Positions 27,561 to 59,197 of a stretch of 59,309 nucleotides of DNA are shown piece after piece. Position 1 is the first letter of the stretch; each line of letters begins with the position of its first letter. The notes beneath the pieces were generated by a model that made no database searches, was not told where the DNA came from, and saw nothing but the letters and a program-made list of their open reading frames with translations. A program made the translations under genes and the position numbers. The DNA comes from Spirosoma sp. (GTDB lineage: Bacteria; Bacteroidota; Bacteroidia; Cytophagales; Spirosomataceae): the NCBI GenBank assembly GCA_014377625.1, contig JACMPG010000084.1, forward strand, positions 1-59,309, written 5' to 3'.

Positions 27561-27615
27561 TCATACCGGCTAAGATGGTCTTTCTGAATTGCCTTCTTCA
27601 CACAACAAAACCAAC

Positions 27616-29025
27616 ATGAAGCAAATACACCTGTTCATTCCTCTGTTTTTTTTGTTGCTTACCGGGGCCTGCCGCCAGCAGGAACAGACCAGCGAGACAA
27701 CAGCCAGCAACACTACCAGCGACACCACGGCCACCCCGCCACCCGCCCCCGACTGGGCCAAAAACGCAACTATTTACGAAGTAAACACCCGCCAGTTTTC
27801 GGCGGAAGGTAATTTCAAAGCCGTTGAAGCCCAGCTACCCCGGCTTAAAGAACTCGGCGTTGATATCATCTGGCTAATGCCGATTTTTCCGATCAGTCAG
27901 AAAAATAAGAAAGGGACCCTCGGCAGCCCTTATGCCGTGGCCGACTACAAAGCCGTGAACCCCGCATACGGCACGATGACCGAATTTAAGGATTTTGTGA
28001 AGCGTGCCCACGCGCTGGGGCTGCACGTTATTCTGGACTGGGTACCCAACCATACCGGCTGGGATCATGTCTGGACCAAACAACACCCCGACTGGTACAC
28101 CCGCGTCAACGGGAAGTTGACGGCTCCCGTTGACCCTAAAACCGGCAAACCCACCGATTGGACTGACGTAGTAGACCTGAATTACGATAACCCCGACATG
28201 CGGCAGGGCATGATTGACGCCATGCAGTTCTGGCTGCGCGAAGCCGATATTGACGGCTTCCGCTGCGACGTGGCCGGATTTGTACCGAACGATTTCTGGG
28301 CCGAACTGCGCCCGGAGTTAGACAAAATCAAGACCGTATTCATGCTGGCTGAGTGGGAAGATGAACCGGATCAGTTCAAAAGCTGCTTTAACATGAACTA
28401 CGGCTGGAGTATGCACACCATGCTCAAGGCCATTGCCCAGGGTGCCCGCACGGCCGATAAACTTGACTCGCTGCGGCTGGTCAGTCAGAAACGATTCCCG
28501 GACTGGTATTATCAGATGTTTTTTACCCAGAATCACGACGAAAACACCTGGAACGGCACCCTGAACGAATCGTTTGGCCCCGCTGCCGATGCCTGTTTTG
28601 TCCTGTGCAGTACGCTGGAAGGCATGCCGCTGGTATATAATGGCATGGAGTCGAACCTGAACAAACGGCTGGCCTTTTTCGAGAAAGATTCCATTGCCTG
28701 GGGCAACTATGACAAAACGGATTTCTACAAAGCCTTGTTGACGCTGAAGCATCGCAACACTGCGCTCTGGAACGGACGCGCCGGAGGTAAACTCAATAAG
28801 GTTTCAACCGATCACGACAGGCAGGTATACGCGTTTTACCGGCAGCGCGATTCTGATCGGGTGGTAGTGATCGTGAATCTGAGCAACCAGCCGCTGGACT
28901 TTCAACTGAACGGCACTGACTATGAAGGTATGTATACCGACGTATTCATGCACGAACCGGTAACGCTGAAACCAGATATGGCTATGTCGCTCAAACCCTG
29001 GGAATACCGGGTGCTGACGAATTGA
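27616..29025 (+). CDS. lipoprotein alpha-amylase (GH13)
   Basis: 469 residues from ATG 27616, which begins a lipoprotein signal (LFFLLLTGAC, lipid Cys about residue 19); the frame opens 27 bases earlier. The four GH13 regions are intact: DWVPNH (region I), GFRCDVAG with the nucleophile Asp (II), LAEWEDE with the acid Glu (III) and QNHDENTW (IV). A C-terminal beta domain (DRVVVIVNLSNQPLDF) closes it. It should hydrolyse alpha-1,4-glucans at the cell surface or in the periplasm, feeding the same type of substrate that the Sus-like locus at 42213-50433 appears built for, though the two are 13 kb apart. Confidence 0.92.
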   Translation: MKQIHLFIPLFFLLLTGACRQQEQTSETTASNTTSDTTATPPPAPDWAKNATIYEVNTRQFSAEGNFKAVEAQLPRLKELGVDIIWLMPIFPISQKNKKGTLGSPYAVADYKAVNPAYGTMTEFKDFVKRAHALGLHVILDWVPNHTGWDHVWTKQHPDWYTRVNGKLTAPVDPKTGKPTDWTDVVDLNYDNPDMRQGMIDAMQFWLREADIDGFRCDVAGFVPNDFWAELRPELDKIKTVFMLAEWEDEPDQFKSCFNMNYGWSMHTMLKAIAQGARTADKLDSLRLVSQKRFPDWYYQMFFTQNHDENTWNGTLNESFGPAADACFVLCSTLEGMPLVYNGMESNLNKRLAFFEKDSIAWGNYDKTDFYKALLTLKHRNTALWNGRAGGKLNKVSTDHDRQVYAFYRQRDSDRVVVIVNLSNQPLDFQLNGTDYEGMYTDVFMHEPVTLKPDMAMSLKPWEYRVLTN

Positions 29026-42212: not shown

Positions 42213-43511
42213 TTACTTCTTTGTCAGTTTATACGTGGGCGCGCTGGCGTTGGTGAGGTCGAGCAGGATGTCGTAGGTACCGGCTTTCACCGCGATGTTA
42301 TCACCCCCGGTCTTTAGCACGCCATTGGCCCCGCCGTAGTTGACCGCCCAGTCGTTGTTCTGCCGGAACTTGATGTCGCCATCAACCAGTTTCACGCTGG
42401 TAAGCCTCCAGATGCCTTCGGTCCCAAAATCGGGCGTGAACTGCGTATCAGGACCATCCCAGCCTTTAGGGGCTGCGCTACCCACCAGACCCCAGACTTT
42501 GTAAGGAACAATGGTGTATTTCAGACTCTTGAAGTCGGCGGTAATCAGGTAGGTACCGGCTTTCATGGCAATGTTATCCCCGCCACTTTCGAGGACACCG
42601 TCGGCTCCGGTATCGCCGTAGTTAACGCCCCAGTCGTTGTTCAGGCGGAATTTAATGTCGCCGGCAACCAGTCTGACAATAGCCCGCCACTGGTCGGTAG
42701 AAGGGTCGTAGAAGAAGGGCTGGTCGGGGCCATCCCAGCCGTTGGCAGTTGCATTGCCGATAACGCCCCACGTAAACGGCTCCACTTTATAGGTCAGCGC
42801 GTTGGTATCGAACGTGACTTTGTAACTGCCCGCTTTCACCGTGATGTTGTCGCCCCCGGCTTTCAGTACACCGTTGGTACCCCCGTAGTTGACGTCCCAT
42901 TTGTTGTCCTGTCTAAACTTGATGTCGCCATTGGCTAGCATCAGATATGCCACGAGTATGCCAGCCTTGTCCGTCCTGTAAAACGGCTGGTCGGGGCCAT
43001 CCCAGCCGTTGGCGGTCGCGCTGCCAACTATACCAAACGTACTGCTTAAATCGAGCTTATCCAGATACGGCGTAACCTTTACCGAACTCAGCGCCGACGA
43101 CAGCACCGTGCTGGGCCCAATGGCCGACTGCACGCGGATGTCAACGTCGCCTGCCGTGGCGGGCTTTAGGCCCAGTTTCAGCAAAATGGCGTTCAGTTCA
43201 CTCGCTTTAAAGGTTTTGGTCAGACCTGCCCCCGTCGCAATACCCTCTGCTTTGGAGAAATCACCGCCTTTTTTGTCGATGAGCAACGTGTAGGCCGCCG
43301 GTGCCGCAAAGCCATAGTCTGGTTTTGCCCACGACACCGTAAGGGCGTCTTTGTCGGCGTTTTCTTTGGTCAGCACCACCGTCTGTGCCGATGTCGTTAC
43401 TACCGGCACAACGCCCGGCGTCAATACAGCTTTTACTTCCTGTTTCTCGCAGGATGTCCCCAGCAGGACGATAACGAACAGGGAAATAGAATTTAGAAAC
43501 CAGGTTTTCAT
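42213..43511 (-). CDS. SusE/SusF-like surface glycan-binding lipoprotein
   Basis: 432 residues. The lipoprotein signal ends LLGTSC (lipid Cys about 20). A SusE-type N-terminal domain (about 40-145, VVLTKENADKDALTVSWAKP) precedes three tandem starch-binding-like modules of about 85-95 residues, each opening WG(V/L)(I/V)G-type and GWDGPDQPF and containing GDIKFRxNNDWxVNYG and GGDNIxxKAGTY. In the Bacteroides Sus system SusE and SusF hold starch at the cell surface. It lies 11 bases after susD in the same operon, and its C-terminus completes the last module. Confidence 0.9.
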   Translation of the reverse strand: MKTWFLNSISLFVIVLLGTSCEKQEVKAVLTPGVVPVVTTSAQTVVLTKENADKDALTVSWAKPDYGFAAPAAYTLLIDKKGGDFSKAEGIATGAGLTKTFKASELNAILLKLGLKPATAGDVDIRVQSAIGPSTVLSSALSSVKVTPYLDKLDLSSTFGIVGSATANGWDGPDQPFYRTDKAGILVAYLMLANGDIKFRQDNKWDVNYGGTNGVLKAGGDNITVKAGSYKVTFDTNALTYKVEPFTWGVIGNATANGWDGPDQPFFYDPSTDQWRAIVRLVAGDIKFRLNNDWGVNYGDTGADGVLESGGDNIAMKAGTYLITADFKSLKYTIVPYKVWGLVGSAAPKGWDGPDTQFTPDFGTEGIWRLTSVKLVDGDIKFRQNNDWAVNYGGANGVLKTGGDNIAVKAGTYDILLDLTNASAPTYKLTKK

Positions 43512-43522
43512 AGTGTTTGTAG

Positions 43523-45112
43523 TTAATAGCCGGGGTTTTGTTTCAGGTTCGGGTTAGCCACGATATCGGCTGCCGGAATGGGGAACAGCGTGCGGAACGG
43601 CTCAACGGCTTTGCCCGCTTTTACCCCGCCTTTGAACGGCCACAGGTAGCTGCCATCCACGAATTTACCGAAGCGAATCAGGTCGGTACGGCGGTAGCCT
43701 TCCCAGTAGAGTTCACGTCCGCGCTCGGCCAGAATCCCGTCGAGCGTCAGAGAAGCCACATTACCCGACGTACCTTTATAGGCTCGCTGCCGCAGCAGGT
43801 TCACGTAACCGAGGGCTGTCGTACCATCGCCCCCCGTACCCCCGCGCAGAACGGCTTCCGCGTACATCAGATACACGTCGGCCAGGCGCATCAGCGGGAA
43901 GTCGGTATCGGGGAAGTTGCCTTCTATATCCGACCCTTTGGCCCCCGTCGAGGTTACGTTCTTGTACTTAGTGAGGGCGTAACCATCTTCAAACTTGTTC
44001 AGCACTTCGTTGATTTCCAGGCTCTGCCCGTCGGTGAAGAACAAGGCCCGGCGGTCGGTTTTACCCGATGGATCAGCAAAGAGATTGACCAGCGCCTTGG
44101 TGGTACGAAGGCCCGCCCAGCCACCGTTGATACCAAAGTCGGCGGGGTTCATCTTGCCACCCACCGGCGCGTGAATCAGAAACGTCATGCCGCCATACGA
44201 TTTGGTGCGGGTACCGTCGAACGTAACGGGCAGGATAATTTCTTTAGCGGTGTTGTTATCGGCCAGAAACAGGTGGCTGTAGTCAGCATCGAGCGAATAG
44301 GCATTCGAGCCAATTACCTTGCTGGCGTAGGTAACGGCGTCGGTCCAGCGTTGGGTGCCGGTATAGACCTGCGCATTGAGGTACAGCCGGCTAAGCAGCG
44401 TCCAGGCAGCAGCCCGGTCGGCCCGGCCATATTCGCCTGTTTTGGGCGCGGTTAGGTCGTTCTCAATGGCTTTCAGTTCGGACTCAACATACTTAAACAA
44501 CTCCTGCCGGGTAGCCTGCCGGGGTAAAAACGACCCCACTGCATCGGCATCGGTCACGAACGGGGCCGACCCAAAAAAGTCGATAGCGTGGCTGTAGGCC
44601 ATTGCCCGCAAAAATCGGGCTTCGGCGCGGTAGGTTTTTATGTCCGCAGCAGCCTGCCCCGAAATACCCCGGCTGCTAAGTTTGGCATCGGTCGATTCGC
44701 GGATGAACTCGTTCGAAGCCGTGACCAGGTAGTAAATCCGGTTATAAATCGCGGTAACAAATTCGTTGCCCGACGACCAGTTCATGTTATGGTAGTCCTG
44801 AATGGAGCCATCGTTCCAGCCAATCACGGCTTCGTCGGTGGTGAGTTGCTGCGCCATCCAGTACTGCCGGATGTAGTTGGAAAACCCTTCGTCGATACCG
44901 CTGATATCAGGCTTACCGGCGGGTCCCTGCTGCCCACTCACGGCCAGTACGGCGTAGAGTTTGGCCAGCACGAGTTTGTAGTTGGCGGCATCGGTATACA
45001 CCGAAGCCGACGTTACGTCGTAAAAAGGCTGCCGGTCAAGGTCCTTCACGCAGGCATTCGTACTCAGTATCAGCAACAGGGCTATACTGAGAGTTTTGGC
45101 TATATTTTTCAT
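43523..45112 (-). CDS. susD: SusD/RagB-family nutrient-uptake lipoprotein
   Basis: 529 residues from the ATG at 45112, which starts a lipoprotein signal (MKNIAKTLSIALLLILSTNAC); an ATG 21 bases upstream is also in frame. The TPR-like helical SusD fold is indicated by YRAEARFLRAMAYSHAIDFFG (about 155-175), AAWTLLSRLYLNAQVYTG, DFPLMRLADVYLMYAEAVLRGG and LYWEGYRRTDLIRFGKF, ending in the typical LFPIPAADIVANPNLKQNPGY. It forms the lid over the SusC channel and captures glycans. A 166-base spacer with a CACAGAG element separates it from susC. Confidence 0.93.
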   Translation of the reverse strand: MKNIAKTLSIALLLILSTNACVKDLDRQPFYDVTSASVYTDAANYKLVLAKLYAVLAVSGQQGPAGKPDISGIDEGFSNYIRQYWMAQQLTTDEAVIGWNDGSIQDYHNMNWSSGNEFVTAIYNRIYYLVTASNEFIRESTDAKLSSRGISGQAAADIKTYRAEARFLRAMAYSHAIDFFGSAPFVTDADAVGSFLPRQATRQELFKYVESELKAIENDLTAPKTGEYGRADRAAAWTLLSRLYLNAQVYTGTQRWTDAVTYASKVIGSNAYSLDADYSHLFLADNNTAKEIILPVTFDGTRTKSYGGMTFLIHAPVGGKMNPADFGINGGWAGLRTTKALVNLFADPSGKTDRRALFFTDGQSLEINEVLNKFEDGYALTKYKNVTSTGAKGSDIEGNFPDTDFPLMRLADVYLMYAEAVLRGGTGGDGTTALGYVNLLRQRAYKGTSGNVASLTLDGILAERGRELYWEGYRRTDLIRFGKFVDGSYLWPFKGGVKAGKAVEPFRTLFPIPAADIVANPNLKQNPGY

Positions 45113-45128
45113 TTGAAATAAGTTTTTA

Positions 45129-45247
45129 AACACAGAGGTAAAAGAGATTTACGGAGAACACAGAGAAGCTGGTTTTCTGCTACTTCAGTTTGATACAACG
45201 TATCGGTACTGATTCAATTGACTTGCTTCATGTGCTCTGTGAAATGC
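45129..45247. repeat. CACAGAG inverted repeat element, copy 2 (decayed)
   Basis: CACAGAG units at 45131 and 45160 and CTCTGTG near 45236 form an imperfect inverted repeat between susC and susD, related to 7190-7299 but more degenerate. Such a structure could affect the relative expression of the two genes. Confidence 0.45.
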
Positions 45248-45278: not shown

Positions 45279-48236
45279 TTAGAAGTTAAGATTCACACCC
45301 AGCGATATGATACGGGGCCGGGGATAGAAATTGTTGTCGATACCATTCGAAATTTCAGGATCCAGCCCTTTGTATTTCGTAATCAAAAACACGTTCTGCG
45401 CCGTGAGCGAGAGCTTCAGGTCTGTTTTAGCGCCCAGTAATTTACCGAAATCATAGCCTACGTTCGCGTTGTCCATCCGCAGGAACGAGCCGTTCTGTAC
45501 GTAGTAATCCGAGAAGTACTGGTTGTTCACGAAGTTGGTGGCCAGCACATTGGGCGAACCGTTCCCGTTGAAGCCCAGCGCGTTGGTGAAGTTGCGGTAC
45601 GCACCATTGCCCGACTGCGTGTTGTTATATACGTAGTTGTCGAAGTTGCCGCGTATTACGAACCCGGCCTGGAAGCGTTTGTAGCTCACCTGCCCCGTAA
45701 AGCCCAGAAACACGCGCGGATTAGCCGTTTCGTTACGGTAGCGGTCATCAATCGTGATTTTACCGTCATTGTTGCGGTCCACATATACGCCTTCGAGGGG
45801 TTTACCGGCGGCATCATACACCTGTTGCAGCACGTAAAACGAGTTGGTCGGGAAGCCCACCGTTTGAATCTGCACCGTGTTGCCAACGCCCCCCGAAATG
45901 CCACCCACCAGTATGCCGGGGTCGTTTGGCGTAGGGACTTTGCTCAGGTTGGTAATTTTGTTCTGATTGTAGGTCACGTTAAAGCCTACGTTCACGGTCA
46001 GGTCTTTGCTCTCGACCGGAATGGTATTGATGGTAAACTCCACGCCCTTGTTCTCCAGATTGCCTACGTTGGTCAGAATCTGGTTGGTCAGGTTAGACCC
46101 CGCCGGAACCGGAATGACGCTCAGCAAATCTTTGGTTTTCTTCTGATAGACGTCGATACTACCCGAAATACGCCCGCCGAGAAATCCGTAATCAACTGCC
46201 GCGTTGACGGATTCGGTTTGCTCCCATTTGATGTTGGCGTCGTAGCCCTCGGCTCGCAGGGTGCGGTAAAACGTGTTGCCAAACTGATACTGTGCCGTCT
46301 GATCGCTGAAGGTATAGCGGGGCAGATACGGATAATCGCTCAGGCCACTGGGCAAATCCTGCTGACCCGTTACGCCGTAGCCCACCCGGAATTTAAGGGC
46401 TGAGACAGCACTCGAATTTTTCAGGAACGACTCCTCCTTCACGTTCCACGATGCGCCCACCGAGGGGAACCAGCCCCAGCGCGTATTGGGACTAAACCGC
46501 GACGTAGCATCCCGGCGCAGGGTGGCCGTGAGGGTGTAACGGTCTTTGAACGTGTAGTTGGCCCGGCCAAAGAAGGCCAGTAGGGTATACTGCGTTTTGA
46601 AGGGCACACCCGCCGGGGCAAACTCTTTGCCACTGGCCAGATTATCGGGATAGCTGGGGTTTTCGCGGATAAAATCCTGATACGAATAGCCCGCTGTCAG
46701 GTCAACCCGGCTGCTGATTTTTCTGAGGTCTTTGACGTAGTTCAGATAAAACTCCAGCGTCTTGTTGGTACGGCTCTGCGTGTAAATGTTGTTTTGCCCG
46801 CCCCGGTTAAACTGCGAAGCAGCCGTGGCCGGCACAAAAATGGTCCCGTCCGATGACGATACGTCGTAGCCGAGGTTCAGATTGGCGCGAAGTTCAGGCA
46901 GGAAATGAAACTTGTAATCGAATTGCGCATTGCCGATGCTGCGCTTCACGGTGCTTTTGTCGGTACGTTGCTGCAGCAAGCCAAGCGGGTTGCGGGTGGC
47001 TAACGTATTGGGCTTACCGGTAGCCGGGTCAATCCACTCAAAATAGCCGCCGTACAGTTCCTTACCGCTGTAAACGGGCTGCGTAGGATCAAATGAAACA
47101 GCTGCGCCAATGGCACCCTGGTCGGCGAAGACGTTGTTAATCAGCGTTCCTTTCAGGTTAACGTCAACCCGCAGGTGGTTGTCGAAGAAGCGGGGCGAAA
47201 TGCCAAACGAACCCGAAAATCGCTCAAAGTTCGAGGTTTTCAGAATCCCGCTCTGGTTCAGATAGCCCGCCGACACCCGAAATGGCATCCCCTTGATTGA
47301 CCCCGTCACGGCAGCATTTACGTCGCCACTGAAAGCTGTGCGGTAAATCTGGTCCTGCCAGTTGGTGTTGGCGGTACCCAACAGGGCCTTCTGACTGGCG
47401 TTGCCGGTACGGTTGATTACATCACGGAACTGGTCGGCATCCAGTACGCTGACGGGTTTGATGATGCTTGATACGGAACCGAGTCCGCTGATGCTTACGC
47501 GCAGCTGGTCGTTGGCAATGCCTTTCTTGGTCGTAATCAGGATAACTCCGTTGGCGGCCCGTGCGCCGTAGATAGCCGCTGCCGACGCGTCTTTCAGGAC
47601 GGTGAAAGTTTCAATATCTTGCGGATTCACCAGACTCAGCGGGTTCGACGCCCCCGTGATGCCGTTGTTATCGACCGGCAACCCGTCGATGACGATGAGC
47701 GGGTCGTTGCTGGCGTTCAGCGACGAGCCACCCCGGATGCGGATGCTGCTGCCTCCGCCCGGCTGGCCGCTGGGGGGCGTAATGCTGACCCCAGCCAGTT
47801 TACCCGCTATCAACTGCTCCGGATTTACGATGTTTCCTTTCTGGAAATCGGTAGCTGAGATGGTGGCAATCGAGCCGGTCAGGTCTTTCTTCCGCTGCGT
47901 ACCGTAACCCACTACAACCACTTCATTCAGCGATTTGGCGTCGTCGGCCAGTGATACGTCGATGGCAGTCCGGGTACCCACGGCAATATCCTGCGACGTT
48001 TTACCGATGAAACTAAAGCTGAGCGTAGCGTTATCCGGTACGGTCAGCTTATAGGATCCGTTGGCATCGGTCTGGGTGCCGGTGGTGGTGCCTTTAACCA
48101 CGACACTAACGCCGGGCAGGGTTATGCCGCCCGGTTCTCTCACCATGCCGGAGACGACGCGGGTTTGGGCGAAGGCTACTGTACTGAGCAGAACGAACAG
48201 ACAGCCTGCAATAAATAATCGGAGATGTTGCATCAT
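45279..48236 (-). CDS. susC: SusC/RagA-family TonB-linked outer-membrane receptor
   Basis: About 985 residues from the Met pair at 48236/48233, chosen because a clean signal peptide follows (LFIAGCLFVLLSTVAFAQ) and a -7 box lies upstream; the frame reaches 48296. Order of parts: carboxypeptidase-like domain (SGMVREPGGITLPGVSVVVKGT), a DUF-type TonB contact region (LNEVVVVGYGTQRKKDLTGS), the plug (PSGQPGGGSSIRIRGGSSLN, DASAAAIYGARAANGVILITTKKG), then a 22-strand barrel ending GVNLNF. It imports oligosaccharides with SusD as lid, energised by TonB. Confidence 0.95.
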   Translation of the reverse strand: MMQHLRLFIAGCLFVLLSTVAFAQTRVVSGMVREPGGITLPGVSVVVKGTTTGTQTDANGSYKLTVPDNATLSFSFIGKTSQDIAVGTRTAIDVSLADDAKSLNEVVVVGYGTQRKKDLTGSIATISATDFQKGNIVNPEQLIAGKLAGVSITPPSGQPGGGSSIRIRGGSSLNASNDPLIVIDGLPVDNNGITGASNPLSLVNPQDIETFTVLKDASAAAIYGARAANGVILITTKKGIANDQLRVSISGLGSVSSIIKPVSVLDADQFRDVINRTGNASQKALLGTANTNWQDQIYRTAFSGDVNAAVTGSIKGMPFRVSAGYLNQSGILKTSNFERFSGSFGISPRFFDNHLRVDVNLKGTLINNVFADQGAIGAAVSFDPTQPVYSGKELYGGYFEWIDPATGKPNTLATRNPLGLLQQRTDKSTVKRSIGNAQFDYKFHFLPELRANLNLGYDVSSSDGTIFVPATAASQFNRGGQNNIYTQSRTNKTLEFYLNYVKDLRKISSRVDLTAGYSYQDFIRENPSYPDNLASGKEFAPAGVPFKTQYTLLAFFGRANYTFKDRYTLTATLRRDATSRFSPNTRWGWFPSVGASWNVKEESFLKNSSAVSALKFRVGYGVTGQQDLPSGLSDYPYLPRYTFSDQTAQYQFGNTFYRTLRAEGYDANIKWEQTESVNAAVDYGFLGGRISGSIDVYQKKTKDLLSVIPVPAGSNLTNQILTNVGNLENKGVEFTINTIPVESKDLTVNVGFNVTYNQNKITNLSKVPTPNDPGILVGGISGGVGNTVQIQTVGFPTNSFYVLQQVYDAAGKPLEGVYVDRNNDGKITIDDRYRNETANPRVFLGFTGQVSYKRFQAGFVIRGNFDNYVYNNTQSGNGAYRNFTNALGFNGNGSPNVLATNFVNNQYFSDYYVQNGSFLRMDNANVGYDFGKLLGAKTDLKLSLTAQNVFLITKYKGLDPEISNGIDNNFYPRPRIISLGVNLNF

Positions 48237-48306
48237 ACTGGTTTTTGATAGGTAGTGCTGAGCCCTCGCCGAAAACCTATAGGGCGAAAGGTTCAACTTT
48301 ATACCG

Positions 48307-48314
48307 CAAAAGTA
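48307..48314 (-). promoter_or_regulatory. -7 promoter box (TACTTTTG, minus strand) for susC
   Basis: CAAAAGTA on the plus strand is an exact complement of TAnnTTTG, 71 bases upstream of the preferred susC start and 11 bases upstream of the longer frame's ATG at 48296. A -33 TTG is not evident, which fits a promoter that needs an activator such as the AraC-type regulator encoded just upstream. Confidence 0.55.
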
Positions 48315-48450
48315 CCAGTTCCATAAAAGGTAAGCGTCCCACTTCAGGCATTAGGCGAAATTCTCACAGAAAAATGATAAGCTTTTGTATATCAGCACAT
48401 TAGCAGTAAAAAACAGTGGCATTTTCGGAAAGTGGGACAAGGTTTTCACC

Positions 48451-50433
48451 TTATTCGGCGGGTTCATGCGTCAGATTGAAGTACTCGCGGGGCGTATTAC
48501 CGGTAATTTTCTTGAATGACCGGTTAAAAGCGGATTTAGAATTGAAGCCCACTTCGTAAGCAATGCCGAGCAGGGTGTACTGCTTGTAGTGAGGGTCCTC
48601 GGCCCGGCGTTTAAACTCCTCGATCCGGTAGGTATTGATAAAGTCGAAGAAGTTTACACCGAACCCGTCGTTGATTACCCGCGAGAGGGTGTGCGGAGGC
48701 ATTTTAAGTTTCGTAGCCAGCTCGTTCAGACTCAGTTGTGGGTTGGTGTACAGCTTATGTTTCAACACGTAGCTATCCACTTTTTCTTTCAGCGGGCTTA
48801 GCGTCTCCGGATCAGGGCTGTGTTCTTTGGCGGGCGTTACCAGAACGGGTTGCAACGGACTATCCAGCACGTCGTCGAAAATAGAGAACGTTTGGGGAGC
48901 CACCTTGAATGTTTCGGGCTGGTGAATGGCAAAATACCCTACGAAATACGTGATGAGCGAAAAAACGAGCCAGATACCATCAATAATACGCTCAACGATA
49001 GGGATACTGTCAAACCCAAATACCCAGCCGGCACCAAGCATCAGGAACATAAAGAACCATAAACTCAGACAGGCGGCCTGAATAAACAGCACCGTACTGA
49101 GATACTGTAAATTTTGCTCATACGAGTAATGCGTCTTATACTGCTCTCGGTAGAAATGGATGGCCCGCTGATACAGACCCCAATAATACAGATTCCAGCC
49201 CCAGCCCAGCACTCCAACCGTCAGGAAAACGGTCCATAATGCCCAGTCCTGCGCAATTATTTTGTTCTGGAACAGCCGGGAGTCCATCAGCAGAAAAGGC
49301 AGATACGCAAAGAGCAGGGCAATAGACGGCGCGAAATGATACGTCCAGCGCGACGATACCGTCTTTGTGTTGAACAGTAATCGCTGGAGATAAAAGTAAA
49401 AGAGCGGAGCGTAAAGGAAGATAACAAAATCGGGCAGCAACAGCAGCTTGGTGAATGTCTGCGCCACATCCCGGTAGCTACCAACCACTTGTAACAGCAC
49501 CATCGCCGAAACCAGCGCAATGGACGCAGACAGCCAGCGGTTGGCCAGCCGGTTGGCATTCTGAATTGTTGGAATGGCAATGATGAGCAGTACCCCCTGA
49601 AACGCCGAAAACAGCATCAACAGGTCGTAAAGCGAGAAAAAACTGAACGTACCCGCCAAATCTTCCCAACTGTCAATTTCTATGGATATCCCCTTGGTAT
49701 CCACGTCGGAGTTCCGAAAAAGAACCCGGTTTGGCCTGGCTTTTCCGGTTTTCCTTCCTTCTATCGATGCCCAGTTGCCCCGCGTAAATTTAAACTCAAC
49801 CCGGTCCTGCTCCGCGTAAATGGCCACCCGGAGCGTACCGTCTATCGAGCGGGTAAGTTTATAAGCCGGATCGCCGGGATTCCAGTTGTTAAAGTTACCG
49901 GTGATGTAAAGGCCGGCATCGTAGGGTGTATTCTCGGGAATCCGACGGATGATAAATTCATAACGGATACGCTTCTCCCAGCCCGCGATGCGTATTGGCA
50001 CCCGGTCGGGGTTGGGTGTCTTCTGCCGGTCATATACCCGGTCGGGCAGGCTGTTTCCCCGAGCGTCGCCTTCCACAAACGTCCAGTTTCCCTGCGTAAT
50101 CTTGTAGGCAAAGTGGTCTGGCGTCTTCGGTAAATTGAGAAAATGAACCCCGGCAGAGTCCCGGCTGAATCTATAATTCGGATCGCCGGGATTCCAGTTG
50201 TTGAGCGTACTGGCTAAGTAGAGAGGTGCGTCGGCCAGGCGCAGCGGTACGTGCTGGATCACCTCCAGACGCACCTGAGCGGACACTGAAAAGGCCAGCA
50301 GCCATCCCCACAAAGCCAGTAGATAGAATGAACACTTCACAGACAATACTAAAAAATGGCGTGGCCCGGAGAACAGGTATAAAAATACACATAAATGAAC
50401 CCATGACAAAGCAGATTGCTCTTCCCGCGCCAA
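48451..50433 (-). CDS. membrane-spanning AraC-family regulator with two starch-binding-like modules
   Basis: 660 residues as framed; a GTG at codon 32 (50340) giving a cleaner signal (CSFYLLALWGWLLAFSVSAQ) is an alternative start. Two homologous modules (about 55-150 and 160-256) each contain (L/F)NNWNPGDPxY(R/K) and (T/F)xxGNW...(V/I)EG...PxRV, the look of CBM20/CBM48-type starch-binding folds. Seven or so transmembrane helices span about 262-505. The C-terminus (about 545-655) is an AraC DNA-binding domain with paired helix-turn-helix motifs (LSLNELATKLKMPPHTLSRVIND; LLGIAYEVGFNSKSAFNRSFKK). It is co-directional with and upstream of susC, so it most likely senses an alpha-glucan outside and activates the locus. 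Confidence 0.88.
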   Translation of the reverse strand: MAREEQSALSWVHLCVFLYLFSGPRHFLVLSVKCSFYLLALWGWLLAFSVSAQVRLEVIQHVPLRLADAPLYLASTLNNWNPGDPNYRFSRDSAGVHFLNLPKTPDHFAYKITQGNWTFVEGDARGNSLPDRVYDRQKTPNPDRVPIRIAGWEKRIRYEFIIRRIPENTPYDAGLYITGNFNNWNPGDPAYKLTRSIDGTLRVAIYAEQDRVEFKFTRGNWASIEGRKTGKARPNRVLFRNSDVDTKGISIEIDSWEDLAGTFSFFSLYDLLMLFSAFQGVLLIIAIPTIQNANRLANRWLSASIALVSAMVLLQVVGSYRDVAQTFTKLLLLPDFVIFLYAPLFYFYLQRLLFNTKTVSSRWTYHFAPSIALLFAYLPFLLMDSRLFQNKIIAQDWALWTVFLTVGVLGWGWNLYYWGLYQRAIHFYREQYKTHYSYEQNLQYLSTVLFIQAACLSLWFFMFLMLGAGWVFGFDSIPIVERIIDGIWLVFSLITYFVGYFAIHQPETFKVAPQTFSIFDDVLDSPLQPVLVTPAKEHSPDPETLSPLKEKVDSYVLKHKLYTNPQLSLNELATKLKMPPHTLSRVINDGFGVNFFDFINTYRIEEFKRRAEDPHYKQYTLLGIAYEVGFNSKSAFNRSFKKITGNTPREYFNLTHEPAE

Positions 50434-55494: not shown

Positions 55495-57654
55495 TCAAAA
55501 ACTATCTTTTCGTTCTTGACCAACTTTGGCTGTTCTATCAATATAATTTTCTAATCTATCAATACTTGCAGCCCCTACTTTTCTTTTACCTATAACTTCA
55601 CCTTTTTCAAAAATCATCATTGTGGGTGTAAACTCAATATTGTATTCTTTTGCAAGTTTTGGGTTTTGACGAATGTCTACTTTTACAATTTCAAGCCCAT
55701 TATATTTTTCTTCCTTTTCTTTCAGATTACTTAGGTTGTTAAGCAAAGAATGACATGGTGGGCATTCTGTTGAATGAAAGACTACCAGCTTAGCCTCATT
55801 ACTGTTTTTTAATTGAATAAATTCATCTTCCTCTGAAATTAGACGAATATTGTTAGGTTGAACAAAATTATTTGCATGATACATTTGAATTGGTGAAGGT
55901 CCGCCACCTTTTGGAAAACGAGGTTTACTTCCACTAATATCTACCCCAAAACAGCCTGATTCAGGGTCAGGTTTTGTTAAAGGGCTACAAGGCTCACCAA
56001 ATGGATTCGGTGTGACCTGATTGGGGCCCATGCAAATATAACCTTCTTCTCTTATAGTAATCATATCTAAGTCTTGACAATGTTTCTCCATTGCTTCTTT
56101 TATTGTCCTTGTCTTGGGAGATTTACATTTTACTCCTCCGCCTATGTATCGCACCAAGGTTGGGTCAGAACATAGATTAAATTCATCTAATGTATTTAAG
56201 CAATCGGGTGAATCCCATCTGCCTTCACAAAGTTTTTTTGTTATTTCCCAACCTAGTCGCTTTCCTGCACAGGTGTTGCCGGGATCATCAAGTACCATTT
56301 CATTGCCAGAAGCTACAAAAGTTGTAACAATTGGTTCTTCTCCCTCAGGGTATTCTGTAGCTGTAACAACTCGACCTTTAACAACTGCTTCAGAAATTGT
56401 TCTGGAAGATTTTTTTTCAATCACTTTTATTGTTTTCGAACCATCTGAGTTTTCTTGAGTAACAGAGAAAAAATCACCCAAATCTTCTTGAGTTGGATCT
56501 TTTCTATCTCTATAGTCTCTATAATATGCTCCTAGAACATTTGCTAATGTACCCAAGGCTGATATTGAGGCTATGCCTATGGCAATGTAAGGGTTTGGAG
56601 CTGTCGCTGCTAACTTTAAATATGTTTCCGTAGTTGTGCCTGTAGCAATTGGGCTACTCCCAGAATCTACACAATTTTCTAAACCACTTTCAATCCTATC
56701 AATCGCTTCTTCAACAAAATCACCAAATTCACCCAAGGGTAAACCATCTTCCCGTCTTTGCCTAATCGTTTCGATTGTCTGCTCTCCCGATTGAAAATTT
56801 CCATCATTAAAGTACCCCCCTCCCCCTACACCATTTTGGTCTCTGCTATCAGAAGCAATCGAATCAATTGAATTTGCACTACACTTGTTGGTAAGTGAAG
56901 TTATCTCATCTATTGTAAGCTGCACATTACCCATAGAGCGATTGTAATCCCTACCTAAACCTAAAAAGCCTCTACCCTTTTCACTTGCAGTTGCACTAAA
57001 TGAATTACCTGGGCAAAGCCCTAAAATTCCATCTTTATCAAGAAAATCTAACTGGTCTCTTAACTCATCATATTTAAAATTCAGTAAATCAATAGTTCGA
57101 ATTAAATCTTCTGGCGAAAGAACATCAGAAATAATATTAAAATATTCTGTGCGTGTTCTACAATCTATCAAATCATCACTCCAAACTGAGCATATTAAAG
57201 CAGGTTTTATTTCTTTACTAGATTTTTTATTGTCTTTGTCTGTAAAGTCAAAGCTATAATCTTCTTCATCGTTTCTATAATTTAAAATTTTACCATAGTC
57301 ATTGTCGGTTTCTTTAATTTTTTTGCCTTTGCGGTCAAAATACTCAAATTTTCCATGTTCTTTCCCAAAAACATACTCACCTTTCAATGCTATTTTTCCG
57401 TTATCCCATGAGTGCTTAAATTTTCCGTGTAATTGTCCTGAAAAGTAATTATGTTCAAATTGAATTTTTCCATTCTCATACCATTTTAGCCAAGTTCCTT
57501 CTTTTTTATCATCTAAAAATTTTCCTGTTACAGCTTTTTTCTGCGAAAAGTCATAAATGCCATTGAAATCCCCATTTCTAATAAATATTCTCTTTTCTAC
57601 GTCTTCAACTCCTGAAAACTCAAAAGTTATGTTATTTTGCTTCTTGACATTCAT
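55495..57654 (-). CDS. large AT-rich MORN - Cys-rich - thioredoxin protein
   Basis: 719 residues. Residues ~44-112 hold three MORN_2/YwqK-type repeats (KEGTWLKWYENGKIQFE, LHGKFKHSWDNGKIALKG, EHGKFEYFDRKGKKIKE). One hydrophobic segment lies at about 354-377. Residues 462-568 carry nine Cys residues. The C-terminus (about 610-712) is a thioredoxin-like domain with HSTECPPC (CPPC at 631-634) and the cis-Pro loop FTPTMMIF. No signal peptide is seen. Base composition is markedly AT-rich against all flanking genes, and codon use differs, indicating transfer. It could be a thiol-handling or toxin-type surface protein; the combination is not recognised as a known family. Confidence 0.75.
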   Translation of the reverse strand: MNVKKQNNITFEFSGVEDVEKRIFIRNGDFNGIYDFSQKKAVTGKFLDDKKEGTWLKWYENGKIQFEHNYFSGQLHGKFKHSWDNGKIALKGEYVFGKEHGKFEYFDRKGKKIKETDNDYGKILNYRNDEEDYSFDFTDKDNKKSSKEIKPALICSVWSDDLIDCRTRTEYFNIISDVLSPEDLIRTIDLLNFKYDELRDQLDFLDKDGILGLCPGNSFSATASEKGRGFLGLGRDYNRSMGNVQLTIDEITSLTNKCSANSIDSIASDSRDQNGVGGGGYFNDGNFQSGEQTIETIRQRREDGLPLGEFGDFVEEAIDRIESGLENCVDSGSSPIATGTTTETYLKLAATAPNPYIAIGIASISALGTLANVLGAYYRDYRDRKDPTQEDLGDFFSVTQENSDGSKTIKVIEKKSSRTISEAVVKGRVVTATEYPEGEEPIVTTFVASGNEMVLDDPGNTCAGKRLGWEITKKLCEGRWDSPDCLNTLDEFNLCSDPTLVRYIGGGVKCKSPKTRTIKEAMEKHCQDLDMITIREEGYICMGPNQVTPNPFGEPCSPLTKPDPESGCFGVDISGSKPRFPKGGGPSPIQMYHANNFVQPNNIRLISEEDEFIQLKNSNEAKLVVFHSTECPPCHSLLNNLSNLKEKEEKYNGLEIVKVDIRQNPKLAKEYNIEFTPTMMIFEKGEVIGKRKVGAASIDRLENYIDRTAKVGQERKDSF

Positions 57655-58326: not shown

Positions 58327-58572
58327 ATGATTAAACGGTATGTGCAGGTTTCGATTCAACGAGTCTGGGATATTGAAGGCTATCCCAACTACTTTTTTGG
58401 CGATGATAAGCAGTTGTATCGCTTCGATTCACGCGGTCGGGTGCAACGTAATAAACGGGTGATGATCGGCTATACTCAGGGGTACGTGCTGAAAAGTAAG
58501 TTTTTCAGCCTGGCTAAACTGCGTCCGCTGCTAAAGAAGCATGGAACTACAGATCATCCAATGGTGATTTGA
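58327..58572 (+). CDS. small NUMOD4-like protein
   Basis: 81 residues. VWDIEGYPNYFFGDDKQLYRFDSRGRVQRNKR (about 13-44) follows the pattern of the NUMOD4 DNA-binding motif of homing-type HNH nucleases (W..I.GY..Y.....G.V.R), but no HNH residues follow. The protein is basic, fitting DNA binding. Its 3' end overlaps the 3' end of the convergent recombinase gene by 26 bases, an unusual tail-to-tail overlap that suggests the pair moves together. Confidence 0.55.
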   Translation: MIKRYVQVSIQRVWDIEGYPNYFFGDDKQLYRFDSRGRVQRNKRVMIGYTQGYVLKSKFFSLAKLRPLLKKHGTTDHPMVI

Positions 58573-59197
58573 GGGTACTGATTTTGTGGGCAGTGACATG
58601 GGTATAACGCATGGTGGTCAGGATGCTTTCATGACCCAGCAGTTGCTGAATGTAGCGGATATCGGTGCCCGATTCCAGTAAGTGCGTAGCGAAGCTATGG
58701 CGCAACGTATGGATACCCCCACGTTTCTGAATGCCGGCGGCATAGGTGGCCTGGCTGTATACTAACTGGATGGCACGATTTTGTAATGGCTCGCGCCGGT
58801 CGACTTCTTCAAATACATAAAGCTGCGGTTGATACTGGCTGAGATATAGGCTCAGAATGGCATCAAGTTTTTCGGACAGCATAACCATCCGGTCTTTTTT
58901 GCCTTTCCCGGCTCTAATGGTAATCAGCCGACGGGTGCGGTCAATATCGCTCAGGCGCAAATGAGCTACCTCGCTCAGGCGCATCCCGGTGGCATATACA
59001 AGCTGGAATAAGGTCCGGTATTTCAGGCTGGTGGTGGCGTTGAAAATAGCTTTTACTTCATTGGCGCTGTAAACGACAGGTAATTTGGCGGGCATGCGTG
59101 GGTAGGCAACGTCGTACTGGGCCTTGTTACGTTCCAGAATTTTTTCCTGGTAGAACTTCCAGGCGTTTAGCTTGACTTTAGCCCTACGCGGCCCAAG
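58547..59197 (-). pseudogene. tyrosine recombinase lacking its N-terminal core-binding domain
   Basis: The catalytic domain is complete: Arg in ATGMRLSEVAHL, Lys in AGKGKKDRM, HTLRHSFATHLL (H-x-x-R), LLGHESILTTMRYTHV (His and the nucleophile Tyr). The first Met (59095) lies just before the domain (MPAKLPVVYSANEV). Upstream the same frame still encodes linker-like VKLNAWKFYQEKILERNKAQ for 34 codons and then meets TAG at 59198-59200. No full core-binding (SAM-like) domain is present in the remaining frames. The gene is therefore 5'-truncated or frameshifted, unless the catalytic domain alone is made. Its type (XerD-like or integron IntI-like) cannot be decided by eye. Confidence 0.75.

Follow-up and report, generated by a model that had tools for sequence, protein, structure and literature searches.

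Accounts of how Bacteroidota control glycan uptake mostly rest on three regulator types from gut Bacteroides, namely SusR-type proteins, hybrid two-component systems and ECF sigma/anti-sigma pairs (PMC3878776). As described there, SusR sits in the membrane, with its sensor domain in the periplasm and its DNA-binding domain in the cytoplasm; it controls the starch sus genes, and according to the same source its DNA-binding part does not significantly resemble that of any other known regulator. Hybrid two-component systems join a periplasmic sensor and an AraC output in one chain and are often linked to susC/susD (PMC3878776). Paired, long-spaced binding sites are known for SusR-like and hybrid systems (PMC3878776), and single-component AraC regulators of Caldicellulosiruptor have such pairs upstream of promoters, where PMC8579813 reads them as activator sites.

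Here we analyse a 59,309-nucleotide stretch of DNA from Spirosoma sp. (contig JACMPG010000084.1; hereafter the window), whose genome is incomplete (85%, 378 contigs) and in which one gene encodes a membrane protein with an AraC output. By prediction, this regulator resembles SusR (Bacteroides thetaiotaomicron BT3705) and SusR-like proteins in being a membrane protein with a periplasmic sensor and a cytoplasmic DNA-binding part (PMC3878776), and it adjoins starch-type uptake genes. Going by the description of SusR in that source, it is set apart by its AraC output, its seven helices and its two starch-binding-type modules; its candidate half-sites are inverted and mostly 88-107 bp apart, whereas those of SusR and SusR-like proteins are paired at 67 or 77 bp (PMC3878776). 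With hybrid two-component systems, as described there, it shares a periplasmic sensor and an AraC output in a single susC/susD-linked chain. Unlike them, it has no kinase or receiver domain: none was found by Pfam in the window protein (E≤1), and none stood among the best 25 of 27 families listed for 27 members. Unlike ECF sigma/anti-sigma pairs, it carries the DNA-binding domain itself, and no sigma or anti-sigma domain was detected in it or in ten scanned neighbours, two of which had no match of any kind.

The original prediction, made from the DNA alone, foresaw signalling without phosphotransfer. From this it argued that the layout stands apart from the three known classes, and that argument fails, since SusR is described likewise (PMC3878776). 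What stands is a difference in parts, with an AraC output where SusR has its own type; phosphotransfer-free membrane sensing is not distinctive. Judged by its parts, the regulator falls outside all three types (SusR, hybrid two-component systems, ECF pairs), and by analogy we read it as a protein that would work like SusR, as a membrane one-component sensor for starch genes.

Receptors of the 7TMR-DISM group combine, within a single chain, an extracytoplasmic domain, seven helices and an internal signalling module. An explanation of the name is given in PMC1592074. The regulator likewise has an outer domain, seven helices and an inner module in one polypeptide; the 7TMR-DISM_7TM family gave no match in the window protein at E≤1 and was absent from the families listed for 27 members. 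Among the literature matches listed, titles and abstract starts did not name a CBM-7TM-AraC layout, where CBM stands for the starch-binding-type modules.

The regulator gene and its operon

The open reading frame of the regulator (48451-50433, minus strand) is a real frame and would give 660 aa if read from TTG. The start is probably the GTG at 50340, because reading from there yields a clean signal peptide (VKCSFYLLALWGWLLAFSVSA-Q) and the starts of relatives agree. Residues are counted from the serine codon S at 50343 (630 aa). The gene lies directly upstream of susC-susD-susE/F on the same strand (Table 1).

This organization matches most of what had been predicted. Two tandem starch-binding-type modules are borne out by Pfam matches in the family, by fold and by contact residues, about seven transmembrane helices by an AlphaFold model and hydropathy, and an AraC DNA-binding domain by a Pfam match to HTH_18 (9e-17); the position directly upstream of susC holds as well, with susC, susD and susE/F confirmed by Pfam. 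Three checks proposed with the prediction, namely a domain search, a topology prediction and a search for the same architecture beside susC in other genomes, are reported in the sections below.

Table 1. Features of the regulator locus in the window
Feature	Position	Strand	Basis and remarks
Regulator gene: signal peptide, two starch-binding-type modules, seven helices, AraC domain	48451..50340	-	Probable start
Signal peptide VKCSFYLLALWGWLLAFSVSA	50278..50340	-	Predicted cleavage before Q; sequence, hydropathy, alignment with 26 relatives
Module 1	49990..50274	-	Alignment, model, fold matches; residues ~24-118
Module 1 residues	Trp50 50194-50196; Lys81 50101-50103; Trp87 50083-50085	-	
Module 2	49678..49965	-	Residues ~127-222; sole module in shorter relatives
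Module 2 residues	Trp154 49882-49884; Lys185 49789-49791; Trp191 49771-49773; Asn205 49729-49731	-	
Seven predicted transmembrane helices	48922..49632	-	Residues 238-474; AlphaFold helices, hydropathy, charges
AraC-type DNA-binding domain	48469..48810	-	Residues 512-625; HTH_18 at 542-622
Distal half-site GTCCCACTTT	48429..48438	-	93 bp upstream of proximal half-site, inverted
Proximal half-site GAAGTGGGACG	48335..48345	-	
-7 box TACTTTTG (TAnnTTTG type), susC promoter	48307..48314	-	
susC (TonB-dependent receptor)	45279..48296	-	Pfam; true start probably further in
susD	43523..45133	-	Pfam
susE/susF-type outer-membrane protein	42213..43511	-	PF14292 4.7e-27, PF16411 2.5e-12

Elsewhere in the window, 27589-29025 holds a GH13 gene (PF00128, 9.5e-39) without the promoter element described below. 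By eye, the frame at 58547-59095 resembles the C-terminal part of a tyrosine recombinase, and the 719 aa protein at 55495-57654 shows MORN-like repeats and a thioredoxin-like end (CPPC).

Starch-binding-type modules

The domain search gave a divided answer. The window protein alone had zero Pfam matches over the module region at E≤1, and its relatives did match starch-binding families at that threshold. Among 27 aligned sequences (the window protein and 26 relatives), AMPK1_CBM was matched in 16 (best 3.9e-5), X25_BaPul_like, the X25 pullulanase domain, in 13 (best 5.7e-4), CBM_48 in three (best 3.2e-6) and CBM53 in three. When seven relatives were scanned individually, CBM-type matches at E≤0.1 appeared in three, all under the curated cut-off. 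A profile of the modules searched against the PDB placed the Bacteroides ovatus Sus amylases first (8dge, E 0.0019), followed by the AMPK beta glycogen-binding domain (1z0n, E 0.11), with two tryptophans lining up in these matches.

Structural comparison pointed in the same direction. The AlphaFold model of the module pair (mean pLDDT 93) retrieved 32 PDB matches at E≤0.001 with Foldseek; 27 of them are starch- or glycogen-active or -binding proteins, a figure that includes many entries of identical enzymes, and the remaining five are pilin, adhesin and similar proteins. Matches included the CBM26 of Amy13K (1.8e-5), BoGH13ASus (3.8e-5), cyclodextrin glycosyltransferases, a beta-amylase and the CBM20 of STBD1 with maltotetraose (TM 0.70 by target length). 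TM-scores by query length were low (0.24-0.38), because either one module was matched well or two were matched loosely.

The putative ligand-contacting residues are strongly conserved. We aligned 99 sequences, comprising the window protein, 69 family loci and those 29 of 80 named loci chosen as not yet sampled. In module 2, W154 and K185 were each kept in 98 of the 99, W191 in 95 and N205 in 97; all four occurred together in 94, and among the five other rows L104 is truncated at a contig end. N205 presumably corresponds to an asparagine of AMPK. The Trp-Lys-Trp set of the modules corresponds to AMPK W100, K126 and W133, which contact beta-cyclodextrin and whose mutation markedly reduces glycogen binding, according to PMC2642990. 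The modules share both fold and glucan-contact residues with the AMPK beta glycogen-binding domain and CBM20/CBM48, and on these two grounds would be grouped with CBM20/CBM48/AMPK1_CBM; here they sit within a bacterial membrane regulator.

W50, K81 and W87 of module 1 were all kept in 80 of the 85 rows having a residue at W50. Thirteen further rows have module 2 and a gap at W50, and in two more Hymenobacter rows (L151, L172) the match to the window protein starts no earlier than residue 126-128. Since Fibrella and Hymenobacter types are among the rows with module 2 alone, module 2 looks like the essential one. A PF00756 esterase of the same genome (L004, C155) carries an N-terminal stretch 30% identical to regulator residues 37-117, that is, to module 1.

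Membrane part and AraC output

The proposed topology prediction yielded seven helices at residues 238-474, both in the AlphaFold model and in hydropathy averaged over 27 sequences. A cleaved signal peptide would place the modules in the periplasm, and an odd number of helices would then place the AraC domain in the cytoplasm. The basic loop 324-332 and the basic end of helix 5 agree with a cytoplasmic side. Charge backs this topology only in part, because the periplasmic loop 353-366 is about as basic (2.4 basic residues, offset by acidic ones) as the cytoplasmic loop 324-332 (2.6).

An AraC-type domain was found in all 27 family members scanned, which places the regulator in the AraC/XylS family. 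No Pfam family covering the helices appeared among the matches listed for the window protein and the 27 members. The linker between the helices and the AraC domain (493-512) has a pLDDT under 50 and, by eye, strongly variable length among the 27 sequences. A kinship of the helix bundle to rhodopsins or receptors was considered and dropped as too weak (E ~0.006-0.03, TM up to 0.55 by target length).

The core of helices plus AraC domain is widespread, with some match in 186 of 200 family genomes (E≤1e-10) and in 105 of 395 phylum genomes (E≤1e-30), the latter mostly helices plus AraC or AraC alone. Module-less seven-helix AraC proteins of ~380 aa are common in Bacteroidota. They have a similar helix part and an AraC domain and leave no room for periplasmic modules; in two that were scanned individually, Pfam gave AraC matches only.

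Distribution and gene neighbourhood

To trace the full-length regulator, we surveyed 200 family genomes, the window's own included, and recovered 69 long matches (≥402 bits) in 68 other genomes; because of this number, the regulator is more than a chance assembly of parts. In the phylum sample, matches of at least 670 bits occurred in four genomes, again counting its own, and two of these begin at residue 119. Absence from a genome is to be read within assembly gaps and the scoring of the best six (family) or best three (phylum) candidates. Among the named relatives are Dyadobacter, Siphonobacter, Fibrisoma, Runella, Emticicia, Spirosoma, Lacihabitans, Flectobacillus, Chryseolinea, Hymenobacter, Daejeonella, Reichenbachiella, Cellulophaga baltica and Saprospiraceae.

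We then examined stretches of up to 20 kb around the 69 relatives, excluding the window. Neighbouring genes were labelled by blastp against nine references only; the GH13 labels rest on two reference stretches judged to be amylases from sequence, with four distant targets confirmed by Pfam, and the relatives are not independent of one another. With these labels, the search for the same architecture beside susC succeeded: susC adjoins the regulator in 54 of 69 loci, as the next gene in 38, past a single GH53 gene in 11 and divergently in five. It lies within five genes downstream in two more. Five other relatives have GH13-like genes within five genes with susC absent, and eight have neither within that range. 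Counting five genes on either side, susD was present in 54 of the 69, susE/F in 48, GH13-like genes in 46 and GH53 in 16. For the ~380 aa seven-helix AraC proteins, susC was found in none of 26 loci, a rough control given short flanks (1.5 kb) and other genomes.

A GH53 gene stands between the regulator and susC in 11 loci (L044, L049, L050, L054, L064, L065, L071, L072, L076, L077 and L081), inside a starch-type operon. Its identity was established in L020, which carries the same gene as L049 (PF07745, 3.9e-103), and we take GH53 to be a galactanase family.

A two-part promoter element before susC

We compared the stretches lying between the regulator gene and the gene that follows it (spacers; n = 50, from the window and 49 relatives) and found an element that is new here. 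It consists of a distal half-site GTNCCAYTTT and a proximal half-site AARTGGNRCGAC, the latter 17-18 bp before a TAnnTTTG box. In the window and in most relatives it stands ahead of susC; if a GH53 gene is the first to follow, the box stands ahead of GH53. The TAnnTTTG box is taken as the -7 box of the promoter.

By a simple scan, 44 of 50 spacers have the proximal box at 17-18 bp from a TAnnTTTG-like box. Of the other six, four were caught by the strict pattern (G015, G022, G053, G093), and in two the -7 box is altered. Taken as a 14-letter word, the proximal box agreed at 12 or more positions in 38 spacers out of 50; the other strand gave 3 of 50, and shuffling 2 of 1000. With the threshold lowered to 10 positions, the counts were 43 of 50, 20 of 50 and 123 of 1000, the other-strand figure being raised because the distal half-site helps there. 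The window's own word matches at 9 of 14 positions.

All 49 spacers with a located proximal box, the window included, had a distal half-site at 7 or more of 9 positions (7.8% of random stretches), and 45 of the 49 had one at 8 or more (1.2%). The two half-sites are 79-117 bp apart, falling at 88-97 and 102-107 bp with single values of 79 and 117. When these distances were tested for helical phase, the signal was weak (mean vector 0.17-0.53 across six periods, whether or not each genus was reduced to one value), and we make no use of it.

The element across genomes

The patterns were derived from the spacers, and sites distant from the regulator or divergent from it are the more independent evidence. 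A strict pattern searched in the 200 family genomes, the window's included, hit 61 places in 56 genomes, compared with 13 places for the same pattern read backwards. Forty-six of the 61 lie at the regulator locus. These include five divergent loci, all from a single genus with small genomes, at which the element faces susC, and two others at which it sits ~4 and 5 kb off, before GH53-susC genes.

Nine further places lie elsewhere in genomes that carry the regulator, on other contigs or, in G080, 52 kb away. Seven of the nine precede susC or amylase genes (G029 twice, G187, G142, G080, G025 and G010, the last with a GH53 gene first), and the first gene there starts 51-242 bp behind the -7 box. 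At the other two (G066, G138), the genes that follow had no match to the nine references. Genomes without the regulator held six strict places, one of them before susC-susD (G129); at the other five, no susC or amylase gene follows. The distal half-site scored 8 or 9 of 9 at the seven distant and five divergent sites and 7 in G129. We rejected the idea that the distal element is the regulator's terminator: it is not merely that, because it also precedes these distant and divergent susC and amylase genes.

Presence of the element followed presence of the regulator. A strict match occurred in 50 of 69 genomes with the regulator and in 6 of 131 without it (Fisher 1.5e-24, computed over related genomes that are not independent). 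By genus, the figures were 17 of 24 and 0 of 12 after dropping two genera with unrelated matches only (4.5e-5, with relatedness remaining). The 19 regulator genomes lacking a strict match comprise the window's own, ten with variant spacer boxes and eight in which no element was found; in these eight (G014, G019, G028, G045, G065, G073, G077, G101), susC is absent within five genes of the regulator. In the window's own genome, a relaxed pattern gives one match, before susC, a site that the strict pattern misses, and the pattern used found no element at its ten PF00128 amylase-type places. Among the named genomes, many of them shared with the family sample, the relaxed pattern occurred in 33 of 80 loci, always on the regulator's strand, and in Hymenobacter it lies between the regulator and a GH13-like gene in four of seven loci.

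Proposed function and competing explanations

We think it likely that the regulator is a one-component transmembrane sensor and activator of a starch (alpha-glucan) regulon. Computation shows the make-up of the protein, the conservation of its binding-type residues, its linkage with susC and with GH13-like genes, and a two-part element that co-occurs with the regulator. As far as sequence can speak, this supports the role originally foreseen, that of a one-protein glycan-sensing regulator.

For the mechanism, we infer the topology, the ligand, direct binding to the element, activation and the crossing of the membrane by the signal. The two periplasmic modules would bind maltooligosaccharides or other alpha-glucan fragments imported by SusCD, and the resulting change would pass through the seven-helix bundle to the AraC domain under the membrane. 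This domain would then bind the pair of half-sites, one of them AARTGGNRCGAC beside the promoter and the other GTNCCAYTTT 79-117 bp (mostly 88-107 bp) upstream of it, and thereby switch on susC-susD-susE and, in relatives, amylase genes elsewhere.

The same regulator and operon could serve another ligand, with modules that sense a different glycan or that bind a large glycan merely as an anchor. GH53 within five genes in 16 of 69 loci makes another ligand possible, and the same-genome esterase with its module 1-like stretch points that way too. This reading is nevertheless rather unlikely, given susE/F in 48 and GH13-like genes in 46 of the 69 neighbourhoods, the retention of the alpha-glucan-binding Trp-Lys-Trp residues and the 27 of 32 best fold matches to starch or glycogen proteins. 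The step across the membrane might also proceed by proteolysis, in which ligand exposes the loose linker behind helix 7 and a protease frees the AraC domain to act on DNA; the low confidence (pLDDT under 50) and, by eye, strongly variable length of residues 493-512 in the 27 sequences would suit such a cut, and we hold it to be unlikely.

Ownership and direction of control are further points of doubt. The element might belong to another starch-gene regulator, with the protein studied here acting elsewhere. In G129, a fragmented genome, susC-susD (L248) carries the two-part element and no long regulator match was found. That genome is what speaks for separate ownership, and labelling neighbours by nine references would miss other regulators; but two observations make this improbable: the strict pattern is present in 50 of the 69 regulator-bearing genomes and in 6 of the 131 others, and the regulator stands beside susC in 54 of 69 loci. 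Repression in place of activation we judge very improbable: the direction of control is not readable from sequence, but the proximal box lies upstream of the -7 box, like the Caldicellulosiruptor AraC-type sites that PMC8579813 reads as activator sites.

Starting again from the preferred sensor-activator, one may venture a broader and somewhat doubtful proposal, namely that it belongs to a separate class of seven-helix receptors wired straight to DNA. In such a receptor, the extracytoplasmic starch-binding modules would act on an AraC dimer held at the membrane, and this dimer would span the two distant, inverted half-sites; the many small seven-helix AraC proteins of Bacteroidota would be the same core with other outer modules or none.

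Significance

The CBM-7TM-AraC protein is most likely a new layout of a known kind of sensor, with many relatives. About a third of the sampled genomes of this environmental family carry a regulator with a part list different from those of the described types, mostly beside starch-type uptake genes. Its operator and regulon are predicted precisely enough to be testable. For the seven-helix AraC core, which is widespread in the phylum, the regulator suggests what one input may be.
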